Shown piece by piece: positions 25,409 through 34,852 of a DNA stretch of 51,077 bases; within the stretch, counting starts at the first letter, position 1, and each line of letters begins with the position of its first letter. The position numbers and the translations under genes were made by a program. This DNA comes from Helicobacteraceae bacterium. GTDB taxonomy: Bacteria; Campylobacterota; Campylobacteria; Campylobacterales; Sulfurimonadaceae. Below the pieces are notes generated by a model. That model saw nothing but the letters and a program-made list of their open reading frames with translations, had not been told where the DNA came from and did no database searches. The stretch covers positions 1 to 51,077 of the forward strand of contig JAMONY010000013.1 in assembly GCA_027066325.1 (NCBI GenBank). The letters run 5' to 3'.

Positions 25409-26710
25409 ATGCAGACGACATTTAAGAAGCTAGATAGCGCAAACGCTCAGATAAAAGCCCTAATCACTAAAGATACACTAGAGGCAAACATAGAAAAAAT
25501 CGCAAAAGACCTTAGTAGACAGGTCAATATAGCAGGTTTTCGAAAAGGTAAAACCCCAGTTAGTGCTGTGAAAAAACACTATGGCTCAAAACTTGTACAA
25601 GATGCAGAGTCTCAAGCTCTTCGTGATCTGCTAGATGATGGTCTGAAGCAGATGAAGATTGACTCTAGTTCTTTAATTGGTGAGCCACATATTGCTCAGT
25701 ACGATAAAAAAGATCAAGATATTGAAGTTGAGATTAGAGTAGCTATGAAGCCCAGCATAGATCTTGGTAACTATCAAGAGCTTGTAAAGCCTGCTGTAAA
25801 ACCTACTATAACAGATGAGGATGTCACAAAGCGTATAGAGCAGATAGCATCTTCTAAAGCCTCTTTGGTTGATATATCTAAACCTAGAGCTGTAGAGAGT
25901 GGCGATAGCGTCACTATTGACTTCAAAGGCTTCTTAGATGGTGAGCCATTTGCTGGTGGTGAGGCTAGTGAGTTTGTTTTAGAGATAGGTAGCAATCAGT
26001 TTATACCAGGGTTTGAAGATAGTGTTATTGGTATGAAAATTGGTGAGTCAAAAAGCATAGATGTAACATTTCCACAAGAGTATGGCAGTGCAGATCTAGC
26101 AGGAAAAGATGTAAAATTTGATGTAAAGCTTCATAAGATTCAGGTTAAAGAAGATGTGAAGATAGATGATAAACTAGCAAAGAGCCTCTTAACAGATGAA
26201 GATGATGCCACAGTTGCCAAGCTTGAGGCAAAAGTGAAAGAGCAGTTAGAGAGCGAAGAGCTTACAAAACTGTACAATGAGTCACTAAAGCCTGAACTGC
26301 TTGAGAGCATTGTTGATAAATATAGTGTTGATCTGCCTGAGTTTGTTGTTGAGCAGGAGATTGATGTTGCATTGAACAATAAGGCTAGAGAGCTAAGTGA
26401 AGATGAGTTAACTAAGCTTAAAGAAGATTCAGAGAAGATTAAGCAGATGAGAGATGAGCTAAGAGCTGAAGCAGAGAGATCTGTAAAGGCTACATTTATC
26501 ATAGACGCACTTGCTAAAGCAGAAGATGTTAGCATTGGTGAACAAGAGGTTATGCAGACTATCTACTATGAGGCTATGCAGAGTGGACAAGATCCACAAA
26601 AGTCATATGAGCAGTATAAAGAGTCTGGTTACCTTCCAGCCATACAGATGTCTATGGTTGAAGATAGAGTCTTAACTAAGCTGCTGGACGATAAGTTAAA
26701 AAGCGTCTAA
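25409..26710 (+). CDS. tig: Trigger factor
   Basis: Ribosome-associated chaperone and prolyl isomerase. The N-terminal ribosome-binding domain has the signature [17 protein letters not shown], the FKBP-type domain starts [17 protein letters not shown], and the C-terminal chaperone arms are highly charged helices. The 433 residues are normal. It heads the run tig-clpP-def-comM, with three bases to clpP. The AAGGA site precedes the ATG. Confidence 0.96.
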
Positions 26711-26712
26711 CT

Positions 26713-27303
26713 ATGAGTTACATACCATATGTTATAGAAAAAAGTGCTAGAGGTGAGAGATCTTATGATATCTTTTCGCGCCTGCTCAAAGATCGTATTA
26801 TTATGCTAAGTGGAGAGGTAAATGATGCAGTATCATCTACCATAGTTGCTCAGATGCTCTTTTTAGAGGCTGAAGATCCAGAGAAAGATATCTATTTTTA
26901 CATAAACTCTCCAGGTGGTGTGGTCACATCTGGTATGGCAATATACGATACTATGAACTATATCCGTCCAGATATTACAACTATCTGTATCGGGCAAGCT
27001 GCGTCTATGGGTTCGCTACTACTTAGCTCAGGAACAAAAACTAAACGGTTTGCTTTGCCACATGCGCGCATCATGATCCATCAGCCACTAGGTGGTGCTC
27101 AAGGTCAAGCCACAGATATTCAGATACAAGCAGCAGAGATTCAGCGTATGAAAGATGAGTTAAATAGCATCTTAGCAACCAATACCTCTCAAGATATCAA
27201 GCAGGTTGAGAAAGATACAGATAGAGATAACTTCATGAGTGCAACAGAGGCAAAAGAGTACGGCTTAATTGATGAAGTGTTGAGTAAAAATAGTAAAAGC
27301 TAG
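26713..27303 (+). CDS. clpP: ATP-dependent Clp protease proteolytic subunit
   Basis: Serine peptidase that forms a tetradecameric barrel with ClpX or ClpA. The N-terminus [22 protein letters not shown] is typical; the catalytic Ser is in [11 protein letters not shown], the His in [11 protein letters not shown], and the Asp follows in the [18 protein letters not shown] region. The 196 residues are normal. It is the second gene of the tig operon. Confidence 0.97.
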
Positions 27304-27310
27304 CTCAGTC

Positions 27311-27826
27311 ATGAAGCTTCAAATCATAAGATATCCAGATAAAAAACTAAGAGAAGTTTCACATAGAGTCACATCGTTTGATGCTTCACTACACTCTTTT
27401 TTGGATGAGCTATATGGTGTTATGTTGGAGTCAAATGGTATCGGGCTAGCAGCGATACAAGTATCTAAGGCGGTGCGAGTATTTATCATAAACCTACCAG
27501 ATGAAGATGGAAATCAGCTAGAGGAGAATAAGATAGAGTTTATTAACCCTGTCATAGTCTCATCAGATGGTAGTGTAGAGTATGAAGAGGGGTGTTTGAG
27601 TGTCCCTAGATTCTATGAGAGTATAGAGCGCTATGAGAGCATAGAGTTAGAGTATAGGGATCGAGATAATCTCAAAAAAAGTTTATCGGCAGATGGTCTG
27701 TTGAGCATAGCTATTCAGCATGAACTAGACCATCTAGATGGTAAGTTATTTATAGATAAGCTCTCATACTCTAGGCGTAAAAAGTTTGAAAAAGAGTATA
27801 AACAGGCTCAAAAGAGCAGGTCATGA
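27311..27826 (+). CDS. def: Peptide deformylase
   Basis: Removes the N-formyl group from new proteins. All three motifs are intact: GIGLAAIQV, EEGCLSVP with the metal-binding Cys, and QHELDHLDG with the HExxH metal site. The 171 residues are normal. Its stop overlaps the comM start (ATGA). Confidence 0.97.
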   Translation: MKLQIIRYPDKKLREVSHRVTSFDASLHSFLDELYGVMLESNGIGLAAIQVSKAVRVFIINLPDEDGNQLEENKIEFINPVIVSSDGSVEYEEGCLSVPRFYESIERYESIELEYRDRDNLKKSLSADGLLSIAIQHELDHLDGKLFIDKLSYSRRKKFEKEYKQAQKSRS

Positions 27827-29331
27827 AGCATCTAAAGTGTGCTACGCTTGAGGGCATAGAGGCACTTGAGGTAGATGTTGAGTCTACTCTCACTAGAGGA
27901 CTGCCATCTTTTACCATTGTAGGCTTAGCATCCAATGCTATCTCTGAAGCTAGAGAGAGAGTTAAAAGTGCACTTCTTGCCAATGATTTTACATTTCCAC
28001 CAAAGCGTATAACTATCAACCTAAGTCCTAGCGATATATCTAAGAGTGGCTCACAGTTTGATCTATGTATAGCCCTTCTTATCGCTTTAGATAGTAGTGA
28101 TGTTGAGTTTGATGGTTGGTTTGTATTTGGTGAGTTGGGGTTAGATGGAGTTGTCAAAGAGAATAGCATACTCTACCCACTCATATTATCTTTAGCAAAT
28201 CAAGGTGTGCTACTTAGAGCGGTTGTGCCAGAAGAGTCTTTACCAAAAGTCTCAAATATTCCAAATATTCAGTTTTTAGGAGTTAAAAATCTAAGTAATG
28301 CTATAGAATTTTTTAGTCAAAGTAGTCCAGATGCTACCCTGCAAACAGCAACTCCTATAGCACACCCGCACCAAGAGGTGTCAGGTGATAGATACTATTA
28401 TGAGCAGAGTTATTATGAAGACTTTAGAGATATCAAAGGTCAGGAAGTTGCCAAGAGAGCAGCGCTTATTAGTGCATGTGGGCTTCATAATCTACTGCTA
28501 GAAGGTAGTCCAGGATGTGGCAAATCCATGGTAGCAAAGAGAGTTCGCTATATACTACCGCCCGTGAGCACTCAAGAGCTATTAGATATAGCCAAACTAG
28601 ATGCTCTTGATGGTAAAGAACCACACTTTAGACCACTGCGACCATTTCGTTCTCCTCACCATAGTGGTACACCAGCCTCTATATTTGGCGGAGGTAGCAC
28701 AAAGGCACGCATAGGTGAAGTTGGTTTAGCACATGGCGGGGTGTTATTTTTTGATGAGTTGCCACACTTTAGTAAAAGTGTTTTAGAGGCACTTAGGGAG
28801 CCACTTGAAGATAAACGCATTCGTATATCACGCGTGAACTCCAAAGTAGAATATCCAACTGATTTTCTATTTATAAGTGCTATGAATCCGTGTCCATGTG
28901 GCAACTTGTTGAGTGAAGATCTTGATTGCAGGTGTAGTGATCTTGAGATTAGGCGCTATAAATCACGCCTCTCTGATCCATTTTTAGATCGTATAGATCT
29001 GTATGTTCAGATGCAGAGTGTGCGAGCGGATGATAGCTCCAGTGTGAGCTCAAAAGAGCTTCATGAGATAGTCTTGAGAGTACACAAAACCCAACGCCAA
29101 AGAGGACAAAGTGCTCTAAATGGTGCGCTTAATGATGAGCAGATTGAGCGAATATGTCTACTTAGTGGCGAGGCGGAGTCTATTCTCTTTCAAGCTGTTA
29201 GTAGATACTCTCTCTCATTTAGATCGATCAAGAAGATTCAAAAAGTTGCAAGAACCATAGCAGACATAGATAACTCAAACGGTATTGAGCAGAAACATAT
29301 TTTAGAGGCGTTGAGTTATAGGCGCAGATAA
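27823..29331 (+). CDS. comM: YifB/ComM-family Mg-chelatase-like AAA+ ATPase
   Basis: In transformable bacteria ComM is a helicase aiding branch migration during DNA uptake. The N-terminal lobe RGLPSFTIVGLASNAISEARERV is diagnostic, the Walker A is LEGSPGCGKSMVAKR, Walker B is GVLFFDELPHF, and the C-rich NPCPCG followed by CRC loop is typical of the YifB family. The 502 residues are normal. It overlaps def by four bases and is followed nine bases later by the first acyl carrier protein, linking housekeeping and biosynthetic genes. Confidence 0.94.
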   Translation: MKHLKCATLEGIEALEVDVESTLTRGLPSFTIVGLASNAISEARERVKSALLANDFTFPPKRITINLSPSDISKSGSQFDLCIALLIALDSSDVEFDGWFVFGELGLDGVVKENSILYPLILSLANQGVLLRAVVPEESLPKVSNIPNIQFLGVKNLSNAIEFFSQSSPDATLQTATPIAHPHQEVSGDRYYYEQSYYEDFRDIKGQEVAKRAALISACGLHNLLLEGSPGCGKSMVAKRVRYILPPVSTQELLDIAKLDALDGKEPHFRPLRPFRSPHHSGTPASIFGGGSTKARIGEVGLAHGGVLFFDELPHFSKSVLEALREPLEDKRIRISRVNSKVEYPTDFLFISAMNPCPCGNLLSEDLDCRCSDLEIRRYKSRLSDPFLDRIDLYVQMQSVRADDSSSVSSKELHEIVLRVHKTQRQRGQSALNGALNDEQIERICLLSGEAESILFQAVSRYSLSFRSIKKIQKVARTIADIDNSNGIEQKHILEALSYRRR

Positions 29332-29340
29332 GGAGTAGTG

Positions 29341-29610
29341 ATGGTAGGTTCAAAAGATAGTGAACTAAAGCTAAAGTTAAAAATGATGATCATTGAAGAG
29401 TGTGAAAAAGATGAGATAGATGTAGATGATATAGCAGATGATCTAGAGCTATTTTCACCACAAAGTGGACTTGAGCTAGACTCATTGGATGCTCTTCAGA
29501 TCTCTTTGGGACTTCAAAATAACTTTGGAGTGCGCATTGCAGATCCAAAGGAGTTTAGAAGAGTTGTTGTAAGTATCAATACCTTAGCAGAGTATATACA
29601 GCCTAAGTAA
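29341..29610 (+). CDS. Acyl carrier protein 1 of type II polyketide-like cluster
   Basis: A small acidic protein of 89 residues with the phosphopantetheine-attachment site LELDSLDAL, serine S48. The ATG at 29341 is preferred to the GTG at 29338 because AGGAG at 29331-29335 is five bases away. It is clearly different from housekeeping AcpP (longer N-terminus, FSPQSGLELDS). The stop shares a base with the next gene's start (TAATG). It is expected to carry the growing chain for the ketosynthases that follow. The phosphopantetheinyl transferase is not in the window. Confidence 0.88.
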   Translation: MVGSKDSELKLKLKMMIIEECEKDEIDVDDIADDLELFSPQSGLELDSLDALQISLGLQNNFGVRIADPKEFRRVVVSINTLAEYIQPK

Positions 29611-30752
29611 TGCAGCAGAGTACTAAGATCCTAGATTCACAGATATTGTGTGCTTTAGGTGAGAACAGCAGAGCACTACAACACCTTAGAGATGGCACAA
29701 CAGAGCTAAGTAGCAAAGAGATAGATTCTGATCTGTTGCAGATTCGTTATCCGTACTATAGCATAGAGCCCAAAGAGCACAACTTTGGTCTATCTGTATC
29801 GTTAGAGTATATCTTTGATGTAGTGGGCAAGCTTTTAAGTAGATCAGATTTGAGTGCAGATGAGCATAAAAATATGGCCATATTTTTTGGATGTGCAAGC
29901 ATAGACCTATCTGTAGCGGAGGTGTTGCAATATAGTCTTGATGAGAGTTTTGAGTCTACTCTATGCTCTAAGCGCATAGGGAGTGGCTACTATGCAGAGG
30001 CTATCGCATCAAAATTTGGCATAGATGGACTCTGTTTTACCTACAATACAGCGTGTACTTCAAGCGCAAATGCTCTATTGGATGCAGACTTAATGCTCAA
30101 GAGTGGGGCTATACAGCATGCGCTTATTGTAGGGTTTGAAAGCTATGCTCCAACAACAGTTGAGGGGTTTAGCGTGATGGGTCTTCTGTCACAAAACTGT
30201 TGTAGCCCGTTTGATATAAATCGTGATGGCATTGTATTGGGTGAGGCGGTTAGTGCAGCAATTTTAAGCTCTAATGGCTCTAGTGACTGGACTCTTTGTG
30301 GTGGTAAGAGTAGTTGTGAGACTCACTCTATCACAGGTACAAGCGCAGATGGTATCGAGATAGCAAAAGTTATGCAAGGTGCGCTAGAGAATAGCTCTTT
30401 AAGAGCAGAGCAGATCACGCTTATAAAAGCACATGCAACAGCAAGTGCTCTAAATGATACAGCAGAGATCAATGCTATGAGATCACTATTTGGCAATACT
30501 ACACCCTTTATCTCACTAAAACCCTACATAGGACATACACTTGGTGGATGTGCTTTGGCAGAGTTGGTGCTGATGATGCTTGCGGTTGATGATGGATTTG
30601 TGCCAAAATCTTTAAACTTCATAGAGGGTGAGTCCAGTGATATGTCACCTCTTTGTGAGATAGCGAGTGTTGATGGTGGAGTGTTTATGATGAACTATTT
30701 TGGTTTTGGTGGGAACAATACATCGTTTATAGTTAGTAAGAGTAGAGCATGA
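29610..30752 (+). CDS. Beta-ketoacyl-ACP synthase (KS1) with intact triad
   Basis: A decarboxylating condensing enzyme of the FabF/FabB thiolase fold, 380 residues. The nucleophile is C149 in NTACTSSAN, the histidines are H275 in IKAHATASALND and H309 in YIGHTLGG, and the glycine-rich end is NYFGFGGNNTS. The second motif is unusual (HATAS in place of HGTGT), a divergence seen in ketosynthases of secondary pathways. It is coupled to the ACP before it (TAATG) and to the half-KS after it (ATGA). It probably pairs with that half-KS. Product unknown. Confidence 0.88.
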   Translation: MQQSTKILDSQILCALGENSRALQHLRDGTTELSSKEIDSDLLQIRYPYYSIEPKEHNFGLSVSLEYIFDVVGKLLSRSDLSADEHKNMAIFFGCASIDLSVAEVLQYSLDESFESTLCSKRIGSGYYAEAIASKFGIDGLCFTYNTACTSSANALLDADLMLKSGAIQHALIVGFESYAPTTVEGFSVMGLLSQNCCSPFDINRDGIVLGEAVSAAILSSNGSSDWTLCGGKSSCETHSITGTSADGIEIAKVMQGALENSSLRAEQITLIKAHATASALNDTAEINAMRSLFGNTTPFISLKPYIGHTLGGCALAELVLMMLAVDDGFVPKSLNFIEGESSDMSPLCEIASVDGGVFMMNYFGFGGNNTSFIVSKSRA

Positions 30753-31612
30753 TCTACATAAAAGCACTCTCAACTTACCACTCACTAAAGCGTATCGATA
30801 CTAAGCAGACTTTAAAAGAGCTAACAGGTAAGATATTTCGCCGAAGTGATAGATTTACACAATTAGCACTGATGGGCGCACATGTAGTAGCAGATAGCCA
30901 AAAACTAGATGATAAGTGTGCCCTATATCTTACATCAGCGCAAGCAAATCTAGCAGTTTTTAACCGCATAAGAGATCAAAAATATCTACACAATCAACTT
31001 CCGCGACCTGTGGATTTTATAAACATGTTAAGTGGATCTGCAAGTTTTTATGTAGCAAAACATCTGGGCTTAAAAGGTAAAAATATCTCACTGTCTCACT
31101 CTGGATTTGCTGCCCAGATGAGCCTGATAGTAGCTAGTAGCGAGTTGAGGTCTGGCAACTCAACGCAGGTACTCTTTGGTGGAGTTGATGAGCTTGTAGA
31201 GCCACTTAGTCTACACCAGAAAATAGCTGGCGTAGAGCCAAGTGTGAGTCTTGCAGAGGGGAGTAATTTTCTACTACTTAGCCAAGATGCTCAAGACGCT
31301 TTAGGCGCTATTGAATTAAGCTATAAGCAGCACAGTAGTAGTGAGATGATAGCAGTCATCAAAGAGCATAAAGATTTAGATTGTATCAGTTTTAGTGCGC
31401 GTATATCTCAATCTCAAAGAGATAATATGTTGGCTGGACATGAAGTATTTGAAGTTGAGAGTGGATATTATGAGACTGCTGTACTCTTTGTTGTAGCGGA
31501 GTTTTTAAGGTCTCAAGATAGTGGTGATAAGATGCTATTTGTAGATAGGTATAATGATAGATATATGAGTACTTTGATCCATAAGATGCCAAAAGGGAGA
31601 GGTAGTGAGTAG
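30749..31612 (+). CDS. Cysteine-less half ketosynthase (KS2), possible chain-length factor-like partner
   Basis: This 287-residue protein resembles the N-terminal lobe of a ketosynthase: NMLSGSASFYVAKHLGLKG, then SLSHSGFAAQ (114-123) where active KSs have TACTSS, then an SELRSGN helix, FGGVDELVEPLS, and SLAEGSNFLLLS in place of the usual GEGAAALVLE. No Cys is present at the nucleophile position, and the histidine-bearing C-terminal half (NAHGTGT, GHTLG) is absent. It therefore cannot catalyse condensation itself and likely acts as a scaffold or length-determining partner of KS1. It starts in an ATGA overlap with KS1 and overlaps the GTG start of KS3. Confidence 0.75.
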   Translation: MIYIKALSTYHSLKRIDTKQTLKELTGKIFRRSDRFTQLALMGAHVVADSQKLDDKCALYLTSAQANLAVFNRIRDQKYLHNQLPRPVDFINMLSGSASFYVAKHLGLKGKNISLSHSGFAAQMSLIVASSELRSGNSTQVLFGGVDELVEPLSLHQKIAGVEPSVSLAEGSNFLLLSQDAQDALGAIELSYKQHSSSEMIAVIKEHKDLDCISFSARISQSQRDNMLAGHEVFEVESGYYETAVLFVVAEFLRSQDSGDKMLFVDRYNDRYMSTLIHKMPKGRGSE

Positions 31613-33368
31613 AGTCTTTATAAATGCGTATGCATCACATAGTTGCGTGGGAGCAGATAGTGAGCTTATGCAGAGTATATATGCAAAAAAGAGTGGTGTT
31701 AAGAGTGATGGTGAGTATATCAGCAGTAAAAGTGTAGCTATTGGAAAGTTTAATGATATTGAATTTTTTGATGCTCTTAGTAGAGCCACATCACAACTAT
31801 TAAGTAGCTCCTCTTTGAAGAGTTTTGCTGATACACTCTTGATTGTGGGCTCTTCAGTTGGTGGCATGGCAACTAGTGAGAAGGTCTATTTTGCTACAGG
31901 CTCTTATGAACAGATAGATCCAGCTTTGCATACCATCAGTGTCATATCAGACATGTTAGATAGAGAGTTTAAGTTTAAGCAGAGCAGGTCAGTATCAACT
32001 GCTTGTACCTCAAGTGCTAATGCTCTAATATTAGCACATCGACTTATCAAGCTTGGGGTATATCGCTCTATTGTTGTGGTGGGTGCAGATGCACTTTGTC
32101 ACACTACTGTTTGTGGATTTGACTCACTTGGAGTACTTAGTAGTAGTGCTTGTAGACCATTTGACATTGAGCGCGATGGCATGAATGTAGCAGAGGCAGT
32201 TGCGGCGATACTGCTACAAGATGAGATGACAGATGAGAGCATAGAGTTGGTTGGTTGTGGGGCAAGTTCTGATGCTTTTCATATAACCAATCCAGATCCA
32301 GAAGCCAAAGGTGCTATTGCTGCGATGTGTGCCGCACTTGATGAGGCTGGAGTTGATGCTAGCATGGTAGACTATATTAATGCGCACGGTACAGGTACAG
32401 AGGCAAACGATAGTGTAGAAGCTCTAGCGATCTCTAAGGTGTTTGATAAAACATCTACATATGTAAGCTCTACTAAAGCCATCACAGGACATACGCTAGG
32501 AGCTGCGGGAGCACTTGAGGCGATAGTGAGTTGTGAGGTACTAAAGCAGCAGCTCATACCTCCACAGTCTGCTTTAAAGACTCAGCAAAATGGTGATATA
32601 TCTCTTCTTAAAGAGCCTCTTAGTAGTTGCGTGAAGTATGTGCTATCTAACTCATTTGCATTTGGCGGAAATAATACATCACTACTATTTGCTCTACCTC
32701 AACAAAAGAGTGCTAAGGTGGCTGCATCTAAATGCAAAAACTTTAAGATCGTATCATCTGCGCAGATAGACTCACCTCTTAAGATAGACTCACTAAACGA
32801 AAAAGAGTTGGTACCAAAGATGATGTTGCGTCGTCGCTTAACGCGTCTAGCACGCATAGCTATCTATCTAGCAGATCAGTGCTCATTTAGAGATGGGCTC
32901 ATTGTATTTGGTAGTGCTTATGGTGAGCTTAAAGCCACTGCTGATATCACAACAGCAATATTTAACAAAGAGCCCATAAGCCCAACATCTTTTCAAAACT
33001 CAGTCTACAATACTGCTGCTTCATATCTATCTCTACTACACAATAATCAAAATGAGATCATCACTATCTCAAGTGGACTTAAGACCTCACAAGATCTGCT
33101 CAAAACAGCAGCTCTTCAAGCCACCTACCACAATAGAGCTGTACTCATCATATGTGCAGAAGCCCTTAATATACCAAAGATAGATGAGTTAGATTGTAAG
33201 ATAGATCTACTAGAGCAGGGCGTGGCGATACTGATAGAACCTACAGATGATGAAGCAGAAGTTTGCAACAAAAAAGGCTCACCACACAGCCCATCTTCAT
33301 CTTTGTATGATATGTTGGATATAATATCGAACAAAAAAGATGGTAGCATAATCTCACTGGAGCTTTAG
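31605..33368 (+). CDS. Ketosynthase fused to a chain-length-factor-like domain (KS3-CLF)
   Basis: Residues 1-380 are a complete FabF-type ketosynthase with C134 in STACTSSAN, H261 in NAHGTGT and H296 in TGHTLG, ending NSFAFGGNNTS. Residues about 400-587 are a second domain with RRRLTRLARIA from about 407, FGSAYGEL (435-442) and SPTSFQNSVYN (459-469). This pattern is that of the beta-ketoacyl synthase N-terminal-like family (Pfam 13723) called chain length factor in arylpolyene clusters, where it is normally a separate protein. The GTG start at 31605 has a GGGAGAGG site. The 587-residue length agrees with a fusion. Confidence 0.82.
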   Translation: MSRVFINAYASHSCVGADSELMQSIYAKKSGVKSDGEYISSKSVAIGKFNDIEFFDALSRATSQLLSSSSLKSFADTLLIVGSSVGGMATSEKVYFATGSYEQIDPALHTISVISDMLDREFKFKQSRSVSTACTSSANALILAHRLIKLGVYRSIVVVGADALCHTTVCGFDSLGVLSSSACRPFDIERDGMNVAEAVAAILLQDEMTDESIELVGCGASSDAFHITNPDPEAKGAIAAMCAALDEAGVDASMVDYINAHGTGTEANDSVEALAISKVFDKTSTYVSSTKAITGHTLGAAGALEAIVSCEVLKQQLIPPQSALKTQQNGDISLLKEPLSSCVKYVLSNSFAFGGNNTSLLFALPQQKSAKVAASKCKNFKIVSSAQIDSPLKIDSLNEKELVPKMMLRRRLTRLARIAIYLADQCSFRDGLIVFGSAYGELKATADITTAIFNKEPISPTSFQNSVYNTAASYLSLLHNNQNEIITISSGLKTSQDLLKTAALQATYHNRAVLIICAEALNIPKIDELDCKIDLLEQGVAILIEPTDDEAEVCNKKGSPHSPSSSLYDMLDIISNKKDGSIISLEL

Positions 33369-33369
33369 A

Positions 33370-33624
33370 TTGATAACAACAGATAGATTAAAAAGTGATA
33401 TTGTAGAGCTATTTGAACTTGATCAAAATACCAATATAGACAACAGCGAGCCTCTGTTTGGCGATGGACTTGGACTTGACTCTGTTGATGCTATTGAGCT
33501 GAGTATCTATCTTGATAATACTCACTCTATCACAATTACCAATTTAGCTGATACACAGAACATATTTGCCTCTATCGACACTTTGGTAGAGTTTATAAAT
33601 AGCACTGGAGAGAAGAGTGCATAG
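33370..33624 (+). CDS. Acyl carrier protein 2 of the cluster
   Basis: An 84-residue carrier protein with the site GLGLDSVDAIEL, serine S38. It starts with TTG at 33370, supported by GGAG at 33359-33362 seven bases upstream and one base after the KS3 stop. Its last eight bases overlap the next gene's GTG start. Two carrier proteins in one cluster is a trait of arylpolyene-type systems, where they serve different stages. Confidence 0.85.
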   Translation: MITTDRLKSDIVELFELDQNTNIDNSEPLFGDGLGLDSVDAIELSIYLDNTHSITITNLADTQNIFASIDTLVEFINSTGEKSA

Positions 33625-34000
33625 ATTGCCACATCAGCCACCAATCAGGTTTGTAACACAGATACTTGACTCACAAGAGCAGAGTGCGAAGTGTCAAGTA
33701 AGCTTTAGCTCAAAACCAACTCTAGCTATGATCATAGAGGCAGCTGCACAGAGTTCTGTCTACATGAAACTTACCATATATAAAGAGGCATTGGGTATCA
33801 AATCTGGTGAGTTGGTTCAAGGCATGTTGCTTAAGATGAGTGCAAAACAAAGAGGTAGTCTACATAGCGGCAAGATGATCATAAGCACAAGCTATGTAGC
33901 CAACTACAGACATTTTTTTGAGATAAATTTTGAAGCTGTAGTAGATACTCATATAGTAGCAGACGGGAAGATCAATATTTTATTGGGAGATGAGAGTTGA
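33617..34000 (+). CDS. Hotdog-fold dehydratase-like subunit A (Glu-bearing)
   Basis: A 127-residue protein starting at GTG 33617 with a GGAG site. The opening RLPHQPPIRFVTQIL matches the N-terminus of FabZ/ApeP-type hotdog dehydratases (LPHRYPF type) and the central helix is MIIEAAAQSSVY with E41, the FabZ catalytic-acid position. The loop with the catalytic His (HFPxxPxxPG) is deleted. It therefore probably needs the next gene product to supply the histidine. Its stop overlaps that gene's TTG start (TTGA). Confidence 0.78.
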   Translation: MHRLPHQPPIRFVTQILDSQEQSAKCQVSFSSKPTLAMIIEAAAQSSVYMKLTIYKEALGIKSGELVQGMLLKMSAKQRGSLHSGKMIISTSYVANYRHFFEINFEAVVDTHIVADGKINILLGDES

Positions 34001-34320
34001 GCCTGCTTAGTGATGATATCTATACTCTTGTGAGCAGGGATGGCAATATCATAGTTATAGAGCTAGCAGATGCCACTCACCCAGTCTTTAAGGCACATTT
34101 TCCATCAAACCCTCTTCTACCAGGATATATGCAGATAGATATCTTGGCAACACTTTTGCAAGTAGATGTCTGTGAAGTTGTAAGTGCTAAGTTTATGAAG
34201 ATAGTGCGCCCTAAAGAGAGGTTAACTTTTACAGTTAGCTATAAAAATACTCAATTAAGAGCAACCATAACAGATAGCTCACAAAGAAAAGTCTCTGCTC
34301 TTAAGTTACTTACTGCCTAA
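33997..34320 (+). CDS. Hotdog-fold dehydratase-like subunit B (His-bearing)
   Basis: A 107-residue protein that begins with TTG in a TTGA overlap and has GGGAG upstream. It contains HPVFKAHFPSNPLLPGYMQIDIL, split here as HPVFKAHFP and NPLLPGYMQID; H34 is the FabZ-type catalytic histidine and D48 stands where Glu is usual. This resembles ApeI of arylpolyene clusters. Subunits A and B carry complementary halves of the FabZ catalytic dyad, suggesting a heterodimeric 3-hydroxyacyl-ACP dehydratase. A ketoreductase is not adjacent. Confidence 0.78.
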   Translation: MSLLSDDIYTLVSRDGNIIVIELADATHPVFKAHFPSNPLLPGYMQIDILATLLQVDVCEVVSAKFMKIVRPKERLTFTVSYKNTQLRATITDSSQRKVSALKLLTA

Positions 34321-34378
34321 TCTGCTAGCTATCTGTACAGCTCTGCTACTTCTTACGGGTTGTAGTGTCAAGTCATCA

Positions 34379-34852
34379 ATGAGAATCACAGATCAGAAGC
34401 GGATGGCTCTTGAGAAGATGCTACTTGAATTAGATGGTAGAGTTTTAAAGAGAGAAGCACATGAGTTAGCCTCAAGTGCACTACTGCACACAAAAGCTCT
34501 ATCACATAGATACGCTCTTGTATCACCACCTCTACTACACAACACACTTGTAAATATTGGTTTAAGAGATAGGGGTTTATGTTATGAGTACGCCTATGAT
34601 CTACTTGAGCACCTTAGAGCCCAAAACTATAGAAGTTTTAAGTTCTATATAGCAGGCTCAAAGATAGGCACCTATTTTGAGCACAACTCACTAGCAGTAG
34701 GGTTTAGAGATGGTAGGTTTGAAGAGGCTATTATCTTAGATCCATGGAGGGAGTCCGGAGAGCTCTATTTTATACACATAAGAGATGATGAGTATGAGTG
34801 GAGCAGTCGTGAGCATCTACTAAAACTCATTAAAATCTCTCCCCAAATCTAA
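34379..34852 (+). CDS. Probable lipoprotein with papain/transglutaminase-like Cys-His-Asp pattern
   Basis: From the first ATG (34379) the protein has 157 residues with C68 in RGLCYEYAYDLL, H102 in YFEHNSLAV and D121 in IILDPWRESG, the order and spacing of a transglutaminase- or papain-like triad. In the same frame just upstream, codons 34322-34375 encode LLAICTALLLLTGCSVKSS, a lipoprotein signal peptide with lipobox LTGC, but the open frame back to 34271 has no ATG, GTG or TTG. The real start may therefore be a non-standard codon, for example CTG at 34313 or 34322. It immediately follows dehydratase subunit B. The role in the cluster is unknown. Confidence 0.72.
   Translation: MRITDQKRMALEKMLLELDGRVLKREAHELASSALLHTKALSHRYALVSPPLLHNTLVNIGLRDRGLCYEYAYDLLEHLRAQNYRSFKFYIAGSKIGTYFEHNSLAVGFRDGRFEEAIILDPWRESGELYFIHIRDDEYEWSSREHLLKLIKISPQI

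Follow-up and report, generated by a model that had tools for sequence, protein, structure and literature searches.

Directly behind the housekeeping row tig-clpP-def-comM, the 51,077-nucleotide contig of a Helicobacteraceae bacterium analysed here (JAMONY010000013.1, assembly GCA_027066325.1; the window, which is contig C13 in full) carries a compact block of type II polyketide-like genes. This raises the question of which pathway such a block could serve without a ketoreductase (KR), a starter ligase or an exporter beside it. The genome (1.69 Mb in 82 contigs, 99.87% complete) is Sulfurovum-like, and the named relatives found are metagenome-assembled genomes of Sulfurovum. The block very probably forms the condensation and dehydration core of a dispersed flexirubin-like pathway, i.e. 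one combining a dialkylresorcinol (DAR) and an aryl polyene. An earlier interpretation made from the letters alone (the sequence-only reading) had rightly recognised an aryl polyene/flexirubin-type parts list. Domains were assigned with Pfam and NCBIfam hidden Markov models (HMMs), with scores quoted in bits against the curated cut-off. Homologues of the third ketosynthase (KS3) of the block were surveyed in 227 other members of the window's family, with the genus represented by seven further genomes. With KS3 as bait, 34 loci were collected, which are interrelated and in part truncated.

Further genes of the pathway are encoded at three other loci of the same genome. The block on contig C68, found via PF00221, comprises in this order an ammonia-lyase (PF00221, 472 bits) as starter lyase, a KR, a fourth ketosynthase (KS4), an acyl carrier protein (ACP3), a membrane protein, an acyltransferase and an AMP ligase. 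The KR has the FlxB model as its best match and appears dedicated to the pathway; the ligase (PF00501, 76 bits), a candidate for starter activation, has a 4-coumarate-CoA ligase as best NCBIfam model, below its cut-off. With sequences of relatives as queries, two more blocks were detected. On C15, a FlxJ-like methyltransferase (minus strand) is followed by a putative DarA of 303 amino acids, DarB, DarG, DarH and the ATPase and permease of an ABC transporter. DarB (NF005293, 585 bits, cut-off 450), DarG (family model, 164, cut-off 70) and DarH (482, cut-off 300) are all above their thresholds; the putative DarA has no Pfam or NCBIfam match and is located directly before DarB as in the relatives. 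C11 carries a lipid A-type acyltransferase and a tryptophan halogenase-like flavoenzyme (both minus strand) as well as a family 2 glycosyltransferase (GT2). Family models also support KS4, ACP3 and the acyltransferase of C68, the ABC permease of C15 and the GT2 of C11. All three blocks are flanked by unrelated genes within their contigs, so contig ends do not account for the split. The tetranucleotide composition of all loci matches that of the window's genome (r 0.91–0.98, versus 0.03–0.56 for loci of other genomes). A recent foreign origin of the core block is not supported, as GC, GC3 and tetranucleotides all match the genome. The C15 block is opened by an extra ACP (L125:6200-6454; 51% identical to ACP2 of the window), and genes for restriction-modification-like subunits are located directly beside its Dar genes (L125:1-6054).

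Since the supposedly missing enzymes are found elsewhere, nothing now speaks for an aryl polyene system of minimal size. The reported absence of KR, ligase and exporter holds for the core locus and, for the MMPL type of exporter, genome-wide, but KR, lyase and AMP ligase are encoded on C68 and an ABC exporter on C15. Glycosyl- and acyltransferases, also thought to be lacking, are present (GT2 and an acyltransferase on C11, an acyltransferase on C68). The suggestion that housekeeping FabG supplies the reduction gives way to the dedicated FlxB-like KR, and that of a distinct short product of a compact cluster to the lyase, ligase, DarB/DarG/DarH, transferases and exporter at the three other loci. 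The remaining aryl polyene genes thus exist in the genome, but dispersed and not as an ordinary single locus. An ApeK-like thioesterase was not recognised in the four loci; the rest of the genome was not searched for one. A stand-alone type II system in which FabG helps to form a separate short polyene or fatty acid would explain the gaps at the core locus. It is very improbable, given that the genome encodes a dedicated KR, a lyase, a ligase, KS4 and ACP3 at another place and that the block is part of a large single cluster in relatives.

In these relatives (G231 and G236), homologues of the whole block are contiguous and in the same order within one cluster of approximately 24 kb; KS1 is 47% and KS3 58–59% identical. 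The gene order in G231 starts with methyltransferase (minus strand), DarA-like protein, DarB, DarG, DarH, two ABC genes, ACP1, KS1, KS2, KS3, the chain-length factor (CLF), ACP2 and the hotdog subunits HD1 and HD2. It proceeds with LPLAT and flavoenzyme (both minus strand), GT2, ammonia-lyase, KR, KS4, ACP3, two membrane/acyltransferase genes, a LolA-like protein and MMPL. The blocks on C15, the window, C11 and C68 are consecutive pieces of this order. In G232 and G234, the first part of the cluster stops at HD2 with unrelated genes beyond, hence a separation at this point has occurred elsewhere too. KS3 homologues are sporadic (32 of the 227 other family members); none occurs in the seven further genomes of the genus, all of which also lack DarB. 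For Sulfurovum, Sulfurimonas and Campylobacter, no paper on aryl polyenes or flexirubins was recognised as relevant by its title in the literature collection searched. The loci described here place DAR-aryl polyene pathways in the Campylobacterota, from which none is described in the papers retrieved.

The core locus consists of eight plus-strand open reading frames (ORFs) between 29341 and 34852, arranged head to tail with gaps of 1 bp or overlaps of 1–11 bp (Table 1). According to ORFs and HMMs, the seven adjacent genes from ACP1 to the two hotdog subunits are real and intact, as had been described. The Cys-His-His residues of KS1 and KS3, the DS motif of ACP1 and ACP2 and the catalytic residues of KS4 are conserved. 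PRK09184 is the best model for both ACPs and PRK09185 for KS1 and KS3; the matches of ACP1 and of the ApeP-like HD1 are both under the Pfam cut-offs. ACP1, for which an alternative start (GTG 29338) is possible, is 59–70% identical to the KS1-adjoining ACP of most relatives having one. The HMM check proposed earlier for PF13723 was positive, with a match in the C-terminal half of the KS3 ORF (79 bits, cut-off 25) that is the only one in the genome. The hotdog subunits are complementary, as claimed: HD1 supplies the acid (E41) but lacks the histidine, which HD2 provides (H34), and each residue is invariant in 14 sequences. This split, conserved across relatives, is that of a two-component dehydratase of the ApeI/ApeP kind; the Pfam Ape models for these subunits are reached only below cut-off. 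A profile of HD2 matched FabZ and 6qsr_A in the PDB, and those of HD1 and KS2 gave weak or empty results. FabF-like and FabZ-like signals might be taken to indicate that the core genes belong to housekeeping fatty-acid synthesis, a possibility raised in the sequence-only reading. This is practically excluded by scores far under the cut-offs (FabF 226.5 of 494 bits, FabZ 28 of 113 bits), by the half-size CLF of PF13723 and by the sporadic occurrence in 32 of 227 family members.

KS2 has neither the active-site cysteine nor the histidine motifs, which verifies the cysteine-less ketosynthase noted before. The cysteine is likewise missing in 13 homologues, so KS2 is a conserved non-catalytic partner. 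The nearest PDB entries of its AlphaFold model (predicted local distance difference test, pLDDT, 86) are the shorter chain of the ishigamide KS/CLF and the short chains of the AntDE:AntF entries, and on this model KS2 is read as a putative second CLF. Among the 34 loci, 16 encode DarB or DarH. ACP1 and KS1 are each encoded by 14 of these 16 and KS2 by 13 of them, versus one of the 18 loci without DarB/DarH for each of the three proteins. The pattern is clear, but the Fisher value (1.6e-6) overstates independence, given the relatedness of the loci and the truncation of some of them. The exception for KS1 and KS2 is L066 (genome G200), where DarB is located on another contig; that for ACP1 is L040, assigned at 40% identity. 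We propose that ACP1, KS1 and KS2 may serve the resorcinol half of the pathway, which offers a testable idea on the origin of the resorcinol chain.

KS3 and CLF are separate ORFs in every relative having both genes. In G231 and G236 the TGA of KS3 overlaps the ATG of CLF, whereas in the window the ketosynthase frame continues via a linker into CLF. The old CLF ATG is still present at about 32730-32745 (ATGCAAAAACTTT), but in another frame. If the A5 run were one A shorter, CLF would start at this ATG with M-Q-N-F-K-I, close to the M-K-M-N-F of the relatives, and KS3 would terminate about 13 codons further on. The fusion therefore reflects either a real mutation or an error in base calling or assembly. 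The earlier description of KS3 fused to a CLF-like domain is correct insofar as PF13723 lies in the same ORF, but the fusion itself hangs on a single base. XdApeO (6qsp_A) is the second-best PDB match of KS3. Only the KS half of the AlphaFold model is good, and since most of the CLF half has a pLDDT below 70, the model says nothing about the packing of the two halves. Both proteins fall inside the clade of the family, with long end branches (0.74 for KS3 and 0.78 for CLF, medians 0.23 and 0.24). Natural KS-CLF fusions were not recognised by title in a literature search. If real, the fusion would be a ready-made single-chain form of a heterodimer normally made of two proteins and useful for enzymology.

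The following route would be consistent with these genes. The C68 ammonia-lyase would deaminate an aromatic amino acid, and the AMP ligase would load the arylacrylic acid onto an ACP. KS3::CLF, corresponding to ApeO:ApeC in one chain, would extend this starter with malonyl units, followed by reduction by the C68 KR and dehydration by an HD1:HD2 heterodimer, with the acid of HD1 and the histidine of HD2, to a conjugated polyene acid; KS4 may assist as ApeR does. KS3::CLF, ACP2, HD1, HD2 and the C68 KR are considered the polyene makers because ApeO-ApeC works as a KS-CLF heterodimer (PMC8358021) and because of the gene roles listed for the E. coli ape cluster (PMC8253772). In the step that is least certain, KS1/KS2 with ACP1 would likely make or pass on a beta-ketoacyl chain from which DarB (C15) forms the resorcinol. 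Both halves may be joined and anchored in the envelope by DarH together with the glycosyl- and acyltransferases, and the C15 ABC transporter, rather than an MMPL protein, would export the product. The ammonia-lyases of 12 Campylobacterota loci with an extracted motif (L103:9411-10931 and homologues) show an F-H pair at the reported selectivity position, which suggests phenylalanine rather than tyrosine as starter; tyrosine ammonia-lyases (TALs) are reported with H first (legend in PMC3992019). The flavoenzyme on C11 (L126:9175-10392; PF04820, 86 bits) may be a halogenase for the aryl head or else an oxidoreductase.

DAR-aryl polyene pathways have precedents in Bacteroidetes and proteobacteria (PMC3949708, PMC3992019), and judged by its genes the one described here is a dispersed variant of these. 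With the flexirubin flx and dar genes of Chitinophaga pinensis and Flavobacterium johnsoniae (PMC3992019) it shares an aromatic ammonia-lyase, an acyl ligase, several ketosynthases, KR, dehydratase, glycosyltransferase, acyltransferase and DarB. It differs in its larger number of loci, in FlxA, FlxB and FlxJ scores below cut-off, in that no MMPL-type exporter was found, and in the F-H pair of its lyase where the TALs have H first. The pathway is called flexirubin-like because of the unreached strict models and this F. C. pinensis likewise keeps flx and dar genes at separate loci (PMC3992019). In Azoarcus sp. BH72, whose arcuflavin is a xanthomonadin-DAR hybrid and so likewise combines DAR and polyene, the pigment requires both of two unlinked arc loci, which act together, in addition to a dar cluster; the starter there is provided by a XanB2-type chorismate enzyme instead of an ammonia-lyase (PMC3949708). 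The ape clusters of E. coli, Xenorhabdus and Acinetobacter (PMC8253772, PMC8358021) have in common the ApeO-ApeC KS-CLF, an ApeR-like ketosynthase, two ACPs, two hotdog dehydratase proteins and a KR; ApeO and ApeC are separate genes, and the E. coli list includes neither a second KS/CLF pair nor Dar genes. The G231 and G236 clusters differ from the window genome by the single locus, the MMPL exporter and separate KS3 and CLF. Distinctive for the window genome are the spread over four loci, the position of the core only 9 bp from comM, the KS-CLF fusion (with its one-base caveat) and the lack of the family's MMPL exporter.

Several observations weigh against a working flexirubin-like pathway. 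The genes are split over four loci. An eight-sequence profile of the MMPL/RND-type exporter of the pathway family, strong in G231, G307 and G009, found none in the window genome (G000). Strict flexirubin equivalogs were not reached (FlxA 342 of 700, FlxB 263 of 340, FlxJ 428 of 560 bits), nor was the DarB-specific NF053539 (513 of 550), though the StlD/DarB model was passed. The KS3-CLF fusion, which hangs on one base, could be an artefact and is to be treated as provisional. Pfam MMPL matches on C4 and C62 were set aside, as they neighbour other envelope genes and are not hit by the profile of the pathway exporter; an earlier single-genus MMPL/LolA query was empty and had no positive control. 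A decaying pathway, with the cluster broken up, MMPL lost and the dispersed genes making little or no product, would fit the absent exporter, the long end branches of KS3 (0.74) and CLF (0.78), the lack of KS3 homologues in the seven other genus members and a gene fusion through a small indel. Every pathway ORF found is, however, open with intact catalytic residues, the spacing is tight and operon-like, and all four functional groups are kept in a small genome, so that decay appears improbable. The flexirubin-like pathway could also be taken further, to a working route at four loci that uses a naturally fused KS-CLF chain, dedicates another KS-CLF pair to the resorcinol half and exports by ABC transporter in place of MMPL. 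Its committed step would share a transcript with trigger factor and ClpP, tying pigment output to the operon for protein quality control. This combination is speculative and, taken as a whole, doubtful.

The placement of the core block behind tig-clpP-def-comM was confirmed; ACP1 starts 9 bp after comM. The same-genus genome G407 keeps the four housekeeping genes together without the block; G405 and G410 keep def-comM or more. Promoter predictions equalled shuffled controls, and terminator predictions, of which the comM-ACP1 interval had none, barely exceeded them. Growth-linked expression of the core block, as suggested in the sequence-only reading, is plausible. In two other genomes of the genus (G192 and G409; L100-L102, L111, L114), comM is in two pieces separated by about 17 and 36 kb, a picture that resembles the insertion of a large element. 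In G234 (L071:12490-14884), the half from Dar to HD2 is followed by apparent clpS and clpA, a second core beside Clp protease genes.

Table 1. Features of the core locus and its surroundings in the window, with the basis of assignment.
Feature	Position	Strand	Basis and remarks
tig-clpP-def-comM	25409..29331	+	Housekeeping row, context outside the pathway; ORFs and spacing
ACP1, acyl carrier protein	29341..29610	+	PRK09184 42.8 bits, PP-binding 19.5 bits, DS motif
KS1, ketosynthase with Cys-His-His	29610..30752	+	PF00109/PF02801, motifs, co-occurrence with DarB/DarH
KS2, non-catalytic KS-like protein	30749..31612	+	No KS motifs; homologues also Cys-less; AlphaFold model
KS3::CLF	31605..33368	+	Ketosynthase to ~32720, then ApeC-type half-size CLF; PF02801 110 bits, PF13723 79 bits
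ACP2, acyl carrier protein	33370..33624	+	PP-binding 21.4 bits, PRK09184 42.5 bits, DS motif
HD1, ApeP-like hotdog subunit	33617..34000	+	PF22817 18.8 bits (below cut-off); acid in E-A-A-A-Q, no His
HD2, ApeI/FabZ-like hotdog subunit	33997..34320	+	PF07977 26.9 bits; catalytic His in AHFP
Lipoprotein, neighbour only	34310..34852	+	LTGC lipobox; first ATG 34379

The terminal lipoprotein of the earlier description does adjoin the block and has a lipobox, with no ATG, GTG or TTG start ahead of it, but belongs to a separate family. Membership in the pathway was rejected, as no homologue is present in any of the cluster loci collected. The family is widespread in Campylobacterota (36 other genomes of 249 sampled from the order), and some of the genomes encoding it (e.g. 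G021, G022 and G037) have no cluster-type KS3 match. Cysteine, histidine and aspartate are conserved in an alignment of 15 sequences (GLC, EHN and DPWR), a putative triad that resembles those of transglutaminase-like or papain-like proteins.

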